Origin: Bacteroidales bacterium
GTDB taxonomy: Bacteria > Bacteroidota > Bacteroidia > Bacteroidales > F082
Assembly: GCA_027022105.1 (NCBI GenBank)
Contig: JALVZH010000247.1
Span: 1-54,585 of the forward strand
Direction of reading: 5' to 3'
DNA length: 54,585 bases
Part shown: piece after piece, positions 22,406-38,234 of the stretch
Layout: every line of letters begins with the position of its first letter
How positions within the stretch are numbered: the first letter of the stretch is position 1
The notes under the pieces: model-generated
Told to the model about the DNA's origin: nothing
Databases searched by the model: none
The model's input: only the letters and a program-made list of their open reading frames with translations
Program-made: the position numbers and the translations under genes

Positions 22406-22957
22406 TTATTCCGTACGTTTCCTCATGCTTGCGGCATCTTCGGCATTGGGAATAATCCAAAACAGGGGCTGCCACCGTTCGTTTCCAAACTGGTCGATAC
22501 GGCGGGCTATGGGAGCTACCCCCATTATTATTTTCTCAAATTTAAGACTGGAAGGATCGGTGCGCCACTCTTCGAGAAACCGCAACCTCAGAATGTCTTT
22601 GGGATGAATAGTGGTAATAATAGTGGTGTCGTACAATTCGTAAGGCGGGGTTTCCTTTCGCAATTTTCTTACCACCGTATCGCTTAATATTCCGGCAACC
22701 TGCTTTGCCGACAGGGGTTCGAAAAAATAATCATAGGCTTTGTATTTCCCGCTTTTGGCACCATCCAAAATCAAATCGACTATTTGTTCGCGCCGGGGGC
22801 CCGTAAGATTTTGTATCCACCAGTCGTATTCGGGGTCGGGATTTTTTATGGGAACATCGTACTGAATGCGTTTGGTAACAACCACAGGCTCGTGATGTTG
22901 CCTGCATCCCGCAAAAAACCAATTGACAATTATAAAAAAAACAACAAGTTTTTTCAT
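22406..22957 (-). CDS. GldN/PorN-like lipoprotein
   Basis: FFAGC lipobox; LRFLEEWRTDPSSLKFEKIIMGVAPIARRIDQFGNERWQPLFWI resembles the GldN core. Confidence 0.6.
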   Translation of the reverse strand: MKKLVVFFIIVNWFFAGCRQHHEPVVVTKRIQYDVPIKNPDPEYDWWIQNLTGPRREQIVDLILDGAKSGKYKAYDYFFEPLSAKQVAGILSDTVVRKLRKETPPYELYDTTIITTIHPKDILRLRFLEEWRTDPSSLKFEKIIMGVAPIARRIDQFGNERWQPLFWIIPNAEDAASMRKRTE

Positions 22958-22990: not shown

Positions 22991-23024
22991 AAAAAAAAAG
23001 ACCCCCGACAGAACGTCGGGGGCC
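22991..23024 (-). terminator. Intrinsic terminator for the Cys-rich peptide gene
   Basis: Minus strand: ccccc gac gttct gtc ggggg followed by a T9 tract. Confidence 0.88.
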
Positions 23025-23063
23025 CCAAACCAAATTAATTAATGAAAAAGCTAATTTTATACT

Positions 23064-23354
23064 CTATTTGTTCCCTTTATCGCTGTTTTTTGCAGCATCC
23101 TTTTTATCATTCTTGCAGTTGTCAGCCTTTAACTCATGACTGCAACACGATTTTTTTGCCTTCAATCCTTTATCGTGGTTGCAACTTTTTTCTTTGCAAC
23201 TTTTTGTTTTACAACTTTTTTTATTTTTGTCGTCGCCATCTTTCTTAACAAGAACTATGTTGTTTTGATGGGAAACAATTTCCGCAACCGATGTAAATGC
23301 TATTGCCGATGTAAATAAAAGGGTTAACGAAAGGGCCAGAATTTTGTTTTTCAT
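23064..23354 (-). CDS. Small secreted Lys/Cys-rich peptide
   Basis: Signal peptide then KKSCKTKSCKEKSCNHDKGLKAKKSCCSHELKADNCKN; own terminator and TACATTTG -7-like box at 23387-23394. Confidence 0.8.
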   Translation of the reverse strand: MKNKILALSLTLLFTSAIAFTSVAEIVSHQNNIVLVKKDGDDKNKKSCKTKSCKEKSCNHDKGLKAKKSCCSHELKADNCKNDKKDAAKNSDKGNK

Positions 23355-23415
23355 GCTAAACTATTTTTGTTTAAAAAATTATACGGCAAATGTAAAGCCG
23401 GTAAGGCTTGGGTAA

Positions 23416-23483
23416 TGTTATTGCGCTGTTAAGAACTGTTAACGATTTGTTAAATCGGCCTCTTTACTGTTAGCTTATGTTAA
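23416..23483. promoter_or_regulatory. Phased array of six TGTTA motifs between divergent genes
   Basis: TGTTA at 23416, 23427, 23437, 23448, 23468 and 23478 (spacings 11, 10, 11, 20, 10). Confidence 0.85.
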
Positions 23484-23506
23484 TTTTGATGTCTGAAAAA
23501 GGGTAA

Positions 23507-24781
23507 ATGAAGAAAAAGCTGATACAATATATCATCGTTTTTACGTCTGTTTCGCTCATAGGCATTCTTATTACACAACTGTTTTGGGTAAAAGAATCCA
23601 TTAATTTGAAAAGCGAGCAGTTCGACAACAGTGTTCGCATTGCCGTAAAAAGCATATTGAACCAGTTGCAGGAGCAAAAGTCGGATACCCTGTTCGCCGA
23701 ACGGGTAAAAAAACTCTCTTGCCGGAAACCCCATCTTGAAATTACCGATTATATAGACCCGCATCTGCTTGACAGTTTAATGTTTGAAGAGTTGGGTTGT
23801 ATGAAGTTGAGGAATTACTACTACGGAGTATTCAGCAACAACACGGGAAAGTTCGTAATGGGACGTTATAAACCGTATGAACAAAACATCCGCAATTCCG
23901 CTTTTCGCTTTTCGTTGAAAAACATCTACAATGCAGGCGACTATTCCATAGGGATTTATTTTCCTGACAAAACCGGAATTATTTTAAAACAGATGAAGTT
24001 ATGGCTCTTTTTTTCGCTTTTCTTTTTGCTGAGTATCACGGCCGGATTTTTATATGTAACCCTCACTCTTTTAAAGCAGAAGAAGATTTCGGAAATGAAA
24101 AACGACTTTGTAAACAACATGACCCATGAGCTGAAAACACCTGTGGCCACAACTTCGCTGGCAGCCGAAATGCTTTTGAAACCCGAAATTTTAAAAGATA
24201 AAAAGCGTGTTAAAAAATACGCCGAAGTTATTCTGTCGGAGAACCAACGCCTGGAAAACCTTGTGGAACGTGTGTTACAGGTATCGATGCTGGAACGTGG
24301 GAAAAACAAATACAAGTTTAAAAAAGCCGACGTTCACAAACTGCTCGAAGCGGTAATCGAAAGTCTGGAGTTGAAAATGGAAAAGAACAACATCAGGTTC
24401 GAATATCACCCGGAAGCTACCGTTTCGGTGGTACATCTCGACAAGATGCACATGATGAACGTCTTTTTCAACCTGATTGACAATGCCATAAAATACACTA
24501 CCGACGACCCGCATATAGTTGTTTCCACATCCAACAATAAATGGGGCATTACCGTTACCGTGGAAGACAACGGTATAGGTATCAATCATGCACATTTATC
24601 GCACATCTTCGATAATTTCTACCGTGTTCCCAAAGGAGATGTGCACGAGGTTCGGGGATTCGGGCTGGGGCTCTATTATGCCTATCAGGTAGTAAAAAAA
24701 CACGGGGGTACCATAACAGTAAAAAGTTTTCCGGGAAAAGGTTCCCGGTTTGATGTTTATTTACCTTTTAAAATTAAGTAA
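23507..24781 (+). CDS. Sensor histidine kinase
   Basis: NNMTHELKTPVATTSLAAEML H-box; NLIDNAIKYT N-box; GFGLGLYYAYQVVKKHGG. Confidence 0.95.
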   Translation: MKKKLIQYIIVFTSVSLIGILITQLFWVKESINLKSEQFDNSVRIAVKSILNQLQEQKSDTLFAERVKKLSCRKPHLEITDYIDPHLLDSLMFEELGCMKLRNYYYGVFSNNTGKFVMGRYKPYEQNIRNSAFRFSLKNIYNAGDYSIGIYFPDKTGIILKQMKLWLFFSLFFLLSITAGFLYVTLTLLKQKKISEMKNDFVNNMTHELKTPVATTSLAAEMLLKPEILKDKKRVKKYAEVILSENQRLENLVERVLQVSMLERGKNKYKFKKADVHKLLEAVIESLELKMEKNNIRFEYHPEATVSVVHLDKMHMMNVFFNLIDNAIKYTTDDPHIVVSTSNNKWGITVTVEDNGIGINHAHLSHIFDNFYRVPKGDVHEVRGFGLGLYYAYQVVKKHGGTITVKSFPGKGSRFDVYLPFKIK

Positions 24782-24784
24782 AAC

Positions 24785-25504
24785 ATGACTACAGAACAAA
24801 AAACAATCAATATTTTATTTGCCGAAGACGATTCCAATTTAAGTATGATTCTTAAAGATTTTCTGGAAATGCTTCACTACAAGGTTGACCACGCAGCTAA
24901 TGGTGAAGAGTGTATCCGGTTGTTTCACAACAATAAATACGACCTTATCTTACTGGATGTAATGATGCCGAAAAAAGACGGTTTTACGGTGGCAAAGGAG
25001 ATCAGAAAACAAAACCCGCAGATACCCATTATCTTTCTTACAGCCAAAAACCGGAAAGAAGACAGGATAAAAGGGTTTAAAGAGGGGTGTGACGATTACA
25101 TTACAAAACCTTTCAGCACCGATGAACTCAACCTGCGCATTCAGGCAATATTGCGCCGTTGTATGTTTGGAAACAATACGGGACAACCCGAAACACACCT
25201 TTATTCACTGGGAAAATTCACATTTGACGCAAAAAACATGCTGCTGATTTCAGAAGAAGGAAAACGTACGCTTACGCGCAAAGAGAGCGCACTGCTTGAA
25301 CTGCTATGTAAAAACAAAAACAATCTTTTGCCCCGCGAAGTGGCTTTGGAGGTGGTGTGGGGTAAAAACGACTATTTTATCGGGCGAAGCATGGATGTTT
25401 TTATTACCAAATTACGGAAATACCTGAAACCCGACCCCGCACTCAGCATTACCAATGTTCACGGAATCGGTTTCAAACTGGAGATAAAAGAGGAGGATGA
25501 ATAA
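24785..25504 (+). CDS. OmpR-family response regulator
   Basis: LFAEDDSN...LILLDVMMPKKDGFTVAKEI...FLTAK; C-terminal winged helix. Confidence 0.95.
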   Translation: MTTEQKTINILFAEDDSNLSMILKDFLEMLHYKVDHAANGEECIRLFHNNKYDLILLDVMMPKKDGFTVAKEIRKQNPQIPIIFLTAKNRKEDRIKGFKEGCDDYITKPFSTDELNLRIQAILRRCMFGNNTGQPETHLYSLGKFTFDAKNMLLISEEGKRTLTRKESALLELLCKNKNNLLPREVALEVVWGKNDYFIGRSMDVFITKLRKYLKPDPALSITNVHGIGFKLEIKEEDE

Positions 25505-37532: not shown

Positions 37533-38234
37533 TTATTCCTCTATCGGGACCACAAGTTTAAATCCTACCCCGTGAACATTCAACAGCTCAACATCAGGGT
37601 CCTGTTTCAGGTATTTCCTCAACTTGGTGATGTACACATCCATGGAACGGGCATTGAAATAGCTGTCGTCGAACCAGATTTTATTGAGGGCTACAGAACG
37701 GTCCAGTGTTTCGTTCATGTTATCGCAAAGCATTTTTAATAACTCGGCTTCTTTAGACGTAAGTTTGTCCTGTTTGTTTCCTATTGATAACAGTTGGCGG
37801 TCGTAATCAAATGTGAATTTACCGAATTTGTAAATATGGTTTTGCGGTTTGTGATCATCCTCCTGAGTTCTCCGTAAAATCGCTTTTATTCTCATGTTCA
37901 ACTCTTCCATGCTGAACGGTTTGGTCAGGTAATCGTCGGCACCCAGCTCAAAGCCGTGTATTTTGTCTTCTTGCATCGATTTTGCGGTAAGAAACAGGAA
38001 CGGAACCTTTTTATCCAGTTTCCTAATCTCTTTGGCCAAGGTAAAACCGTCCATTACGGGCATCATAATATCAAGGATGCAAAATTCAAAATTTCCCTTT
38101 TTAAACTCTTCAAGTGCAACTTTTCCGTTTGGGCACAATACGGTTTCATATCCTTTGGCATTCAGGTAGTTCTTTAGAATATTTCCGAGGTTTTTGTCGT
38201 CCTCGGCCAATAACATTTTTATTTTTTTATCCAT
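37533..38234 (-). CDS. OmpR-family response regulator (RprY-like)
   Basis: KMLLAEDDKNLGNILKNYLNAKGYE...CILDIMMPVMDGFTLAKEI; C-terminal ARSMDVYITKLRKYLKQDP. Confidence 0.94.
   Translation of the reverse strand: MDKKIKMLLAEDDKNLGNILKNYLNAKGYETVLCPNGKVALEEFKKGNFEFCILDIMMPVMDGFTLAKEIRKLDKKVPFLFLTAKSMQEDKIHGFELGADDYLTKPFSMEELNMRIKAILRRTQEDDHKPQNHIYKFGKFTFDYDRQLLSIGNKQDKLTSKEAELLKMLCDNMNETLDRSVALNKIWFDDSYFNARSMDVYITKLRKYLKQDPDVELLNVHGVGFKLVVPIEE

Follow-up and report, generated by a model that had tools for sequence, protein, structure and literature searches.

In the CpxAR-cpxP and ZraSR-zraP divergons, a two-component operon and a gene encoding a small periplasmic protein diverge from each other, with the sites of the regulator located between them. 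Direct repeats of the TGTWA type are well known as OmpR/PhoB-family operators, and in PhoB-type activation the half-sites point along the direction of transcription. WalR/VicR (YycF) of Firmicutes, an OmpR/PhoB-family regulator with many targets, binds TGTWAH-N5-TGTWAH direct repeats, whose two half-sites lie about one helical turn apart (PMC4168254). PhoP of Riemerella anatipestifer, an OmpR-family regulator from Bacteroidota, recognizes a TTTAACA motif, which reads TGTTAAA on the opposite strand; it binds upstream of the operon that encodes it and acts globally, with 583 DAP-seq peaks (PMC9603813). Bacteroidota sigma-A promoters have a -7 box with the consensus TAnnTTTG, whereas the -33 element (TTTG/TTG) is weak in this phylum anyway (PMC7366714).

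The locus described here lies in the window, i.e. the whole stretch of 54,585 nucleotides that was analysed. As in CpxAR-cpxP and ZraSR-zraP, the gene of a small secreted protein (the peptide) adjoins a two-component operon in divergent orientation, with a candidate operator in between. In contrast to CpxP and ZraP, the peptide comes from a different phylum, is Lys/Cys-rich, probably unstructured and, by Pfam, without the LTXXQ (CpxP/ZraP) domain; it had no matches in Pfam or NCBIfam. No description of the kinase-regulator-peptide module was found in the open-access papers searched. The locus comprises the following features:

22998..23026, minus strand: predicted intrinsic terminator of the peptide gene, with a 13-bp stem and a T run
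23064..23354, minus strand: secreted Lys/Cys-rich small protein (96 aa) with signal peptide and SCC motif, conserved divergent neighbour
23387..23394, minus strand: putative -7 box of the peptide gene, CAAATGTA (minus-strand TACATTTG), 21 bp from the array
23416..23452, plus strand: core array, TGTTA-N6-TGTTA-N5-TGTTA-N6-TGTTA, half-sites at 23416, 23427, 23437 and 23448
23468..23482, plus strand: two extra TGTTA motifs (23468, 23478), lineage-specific and outside the conserved array
23481..23488, plus strand: putative -7 box of the kinase-regulator operon, TAATTTTG, 28 bp from the array
23507..24781, plus strand: sensor histidine kinase (HisKA, HATPase_c) with an N-terminal extracytoplasmic domain containing a near-invariant Cys
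24785..25504, plus strand: response regulator of the OmpR/PhoB type, receiver and Trans_reg_C winged-helix domain

The preliminary description of this DNA had listed six TGTTA motifs, and all of them start exactly where it had placed them (23416, 23427, 23437, 23448, 23468 and 23478); the -7-like box at 23387-23394 on the minus strand and the kinase ATG at 23507 are likewise present in the sequence. A scan for TGTTA-N5/6-TGTTA, which it had proposed, returned four matches in the window (0.29 expected), all in this intergenic stretch, and the three-site form was found only at the array locus in the 3.9 Mb assembly. Chains of at least three TGTTA at 10/11-bp steps arose in none of 20,000 dinucleotide shuffles of positions 23355-23506 and chains of four, for any pentamer, in none of 5,000 shuffles. 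Across the whole window, the TGTTA array is the sole four-member chain of any pentamer.

Orthologs of the regulator (55-69% identity), with the kinase gene upstream of them, were found across the family and in a few related families, and their intergenic regions bear the pattern TGTTA-N6-TGTTA-N5-TGTTA-N6-TGTTA, which is kept almost unchanged in this family of environmental Bacteroidales. In an array-anchored alignment of 25 loci, the half-site cores were nearly or fully invariant (consensus TGTTAA) and the flanking columns corresponded to background; the 11-10-11 spacing was retained in about 25 loci with randomized flanks and spacer. Locus L074, which contains the peptide gene, was left out of the anchored set because its array deviates by one mismatch and is spaced 10-10-11. 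The comparison of orthologous loci had been put forward in the preliminary description as the test that could refute its proposal, and it revealed that the phased motif is retained together with both genes. The idea of a six-site array held only in part: six motifs exist, but only sites 1-4 are conserved and under selection, whereas sites 5 and 6 are missing from L033, the ortholog in the same genus, and from almost every other ortholog. The last two bases of site 6 (23478-23482) are shared with the -7 box at 23481-23488.

The four-site pattern was then searched in 60 genomes, allowing at most one mismatch. It was detected in 22 of the 25 genomes with a regulator ortholog vs 1 of the 35 without (Fisher p 3e-12, a statistic that ignores shared ancestry), and the lone exception, G055, has a more diverged regulator ortholog at its array. 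A class-wide sample of 198 genomes yielded only four others with a match at one mismatch, compared to one for the reversed-pattern control. Three-site arrays were likewise essentially confined to the array locus in genome-wide searches. As these searches return essentially one locus, each genome has the array at a single place, suggestive of a dedicated, single-locus system. A wide regulon built on arrays of three or four sites was considered and rejected, the other matches being isolated and near control level. Array and peptide gene co-occur almost perfectly, and matches to the peptide profile are single-copy and coincide with the array. Two genomes (G040, G049) contain the kinase and regulator and lack both peptide and array; because their regulator orthologs come with neither, the array goes with the peptide.

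Both domains of the regulator, Response_reg and Trans_reg_C, score above the gathering threshold, in line with its earlier assignment to the OmpR/PhoB type, and direct-repeat half-sites 10-11 bp apart near a promoter match the operator layout of this family. Its recognition helix (GRSMDVFITKLRKYL) hardly varies among orthologs. The closest named regulator family is RprXY of Bacteroides and Porphyromonas (NF051850, 288.1 bits), with a similar recognition helix and with TGTTA pairs upstream of RprXY-like paralogs, whereas the neighbouring genes differ and the window also contains a distinct RprY-like paralog. The latter (37539-38231, minus strand), accompanied on this contig by a kinase of its own, is 50% identical to the first regulator. 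An identification as RprY was rejected at 288.1 bits, below the 370-bit NCBIfam equivalog cutoff, as was Bacteroidota PhoB (NF053854), at 182 bits and thus below its 270-bit cutoff; kinase and regulator also fall under the WalK and YycF equivalog cutoffs. The locus resembles WalR/VicR in its TGTWA half-sites, but has four of them at 11-10-11 spacing and essentially one locus per genome. Its restriction to a single locus also sets it apart from Riemerella PhoP.

The model of the sensor domain has a mean pLDDT of 92. Comparison with the PDB gave no significant match by sequence or fold, so that the signal cannot be read from the model. Cys 72 is present in 20 of 21 sequences and Cys 98 in 17 of 21; a disulfide switch formed by an invariant Cys pair is not supported as a general feature, given the incomplete conservation of Cys 98.

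On the other side of the array, the peptide belongs to a family of small secreted Lys/Asp/Cys-rich proteins, mostly with an (S/A)CC core, encoded divergently from the kinase. The peptide gene is probably transcribed alone because a strong terminator is predicted at its end. Beyond this terminator, a GldN-like protein is encoded at 22406-22957 (minus strand; PF19841, E 1.8e-10), which scores under the NCBIfam GldN cutoff. An OsmC-family gene adjoins the peptide gene in one group of genomes (L045, L047-L050, L052, L072 and L208) and adjoins the kinase in L056, which is without the peptide; these neighbours indicate a possible link to thiol or peroxide stress.

TAnnTTTG-type -7 boxes are present on both sides of the array, as consensus matches rather than mapped start sites. 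The -7 box of the peptide promoter (CAAANNTA) is separated from the array by 21 bp in most of the 25 anchored loci and by 20 or 22 bp in the rest, even though the mean pairwise identity of the spacer (0.28) is at random level. The array thereby spans roughly positions -33 to -70 of the peptide promoter. On the peptide side, none of 24 loci has a correctly spaced TTG -33 element, consistent with the earlier proposal of a peptide promoter with a -7 box and no -33 element. The kinase -7 box (TANNTTTG) lies 27-29 bp from the array in 22 of the 25 loci. Geometry is fixed everywhere on the peptide side and looser on the kinase side, which several genomes have lost or displaced. The peptide gene of G023, with a one-mismatch array and the 21-bp gap, stands alone, its kinase and regulator being on another contig that is free of the array; L052 and G055 have a displaced or expanded kinase side and a peptide gap that stays at 21 or 22 bp. 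Given the fixed gap and the situation in G023, L052, G055, G040 and G049, the array belongs primarily to the peptide promoter, and autoregulation of the kinase-regulator operon is likely but secondary. Control of both genes, as proposed in the preliminary description, is therefore retained for the peptide side, but applies unequally, being looser, lost or displaced on the kinase side.

We consider it most probable (about 0.78) that the array serves a dedicated two-component system as its operator, with regulator dimers that activate the peptide promoter and probably tune their own operon. The neighbouring regulator very probably binds the array and switches the peptide gene, and probably also switches its own operon. 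The core array probably represents two tandem dimer sites, its 11-10-11 spacing being read as two TGTTA-N6-TGTTA units. The phosphorylated regulator (24785-25504) would bind 23416-23452 as two head-to-tail dimers on one face of the DNA, with one dimer per TGTTA-N6-TGTTA pair. The proximal half-site, at a fixed distance of 21 bp from the peptide -7 box, may stand in for the missing -33 element, so that the divergent promoter would be activated, most likely in a class-II-type manner. Tuning of the regulator's own operon is also probable, the -7 box on that side being about 28 bp from the array. The orientation of the half-sites, which point away from the peptide gene, counts against a PhoB-like mode of activation. 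The secreted, monocistronic Lys/Asp/Cys-rich product would probably act in the periplasm, within the signal of the kinase itself, for which metal stress, thiol stress or feedback on the kinase are candidates. Its composition suggests metal or thiol binding, or a CpxP/ZraP-like feedback on the kinase.

The main rival reading, which we regard as unlikely, assigns the opposite sign: the regulator on the array would repress the peptide promoter, with the half-site over -33 blocking RNA polymerase until a signal relieves or reverses the effect. An array at about -33 to -70 does overlap polymerase contacts, but a precise 21-bp gap is unnecessary for repression, and the loci retain no -33 element that could support a promoter without an activator.

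A mainly autoregulatory array, with the peptide gene as a passive neighbour, appears distinctly improbable. In its favour, related phased TGTTA motifs persist upstream of the kinase in distant relatives whose neighbouring genes differ (L075, L118, L137, L145), and the RprXY paralogs also have TGTTA pairs upstream. It is already weakened by G023, in which the array stays with the peptide gene, by the retained peptide gap in G055 and L052 despite a distant kinase promoter, and by G040 and G049, which have the kinase and neither peptide nor array.

Less probable still is the use of the array by another regulator, such as the RprY-like paralog at 37539-38231. Cross-binding is conceivable because such paralogs have nearly the same recognition helix and TGTTA-N5-TGTTA promoters in sister genomes. 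However, genomes with an RprY-like regulator and without the cognate one (for example G001-G005, G007-G009 and G011) lack the four-site array, and from co-occurrence only we infer that the cognate regulator rather than the paralog would occupy it. Chance repetition in an AT-rich region is refuted by the shuffles, the conservation in about 25 loci and the almost empty reversed-pattern control.

The TGTTAA half-site appears to characterize the regulator clade more widely, since distant kinases of the lineage (L075, L118, L137) have phased TGTTA motifs at 11-10-11 spacing upstream, with a degenerate second register, and RprXY-like paralogs of the same family, with their nearly identical recognition helix, have TGTTA-N5-TGTTA pairs in several genomes. 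Specificity is probably provided by site number and spacing. A secreted DUF1573 gene lies divergent from the kinase in L118, L131 and L137, and a DUF1573 gene occupies the corresponding position in L100. A broader reading, which we offer tentatively, is that of a self-contained Bacteroidota signalling module with one dedicated target, in which the secreted Lys/Cys-rich protein might, like CpxP and ZraP elsewhere, feed back on the kinase or buffer its metal or thiol signal, and the DUF1573 protein might fill this slot in distant relatives.

The locus provides a concrete candidate operator, with its geometry and a target, for an uncharacterized two-component lineage in a phylum with few mapped operators, and ties an unnamed family of secreted Lys/Cys-rich proteins to one kinase. 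The fixed 21-bp gap, with the -33 element missing, also constitutes a testable model for activators that replace this element at the unusual promoters of the phylum.

The module is absent from 10 of 12 genomes of the genus of the window (G001-G009, G011), a patchiness that may reflect either frequent loss or an acquisition by G000 and G010. Just upstream of the start of a dnaA-like gene (12630) in G023, a three-site TGTTA array is present at L208:12586-12611, possibly by chance.
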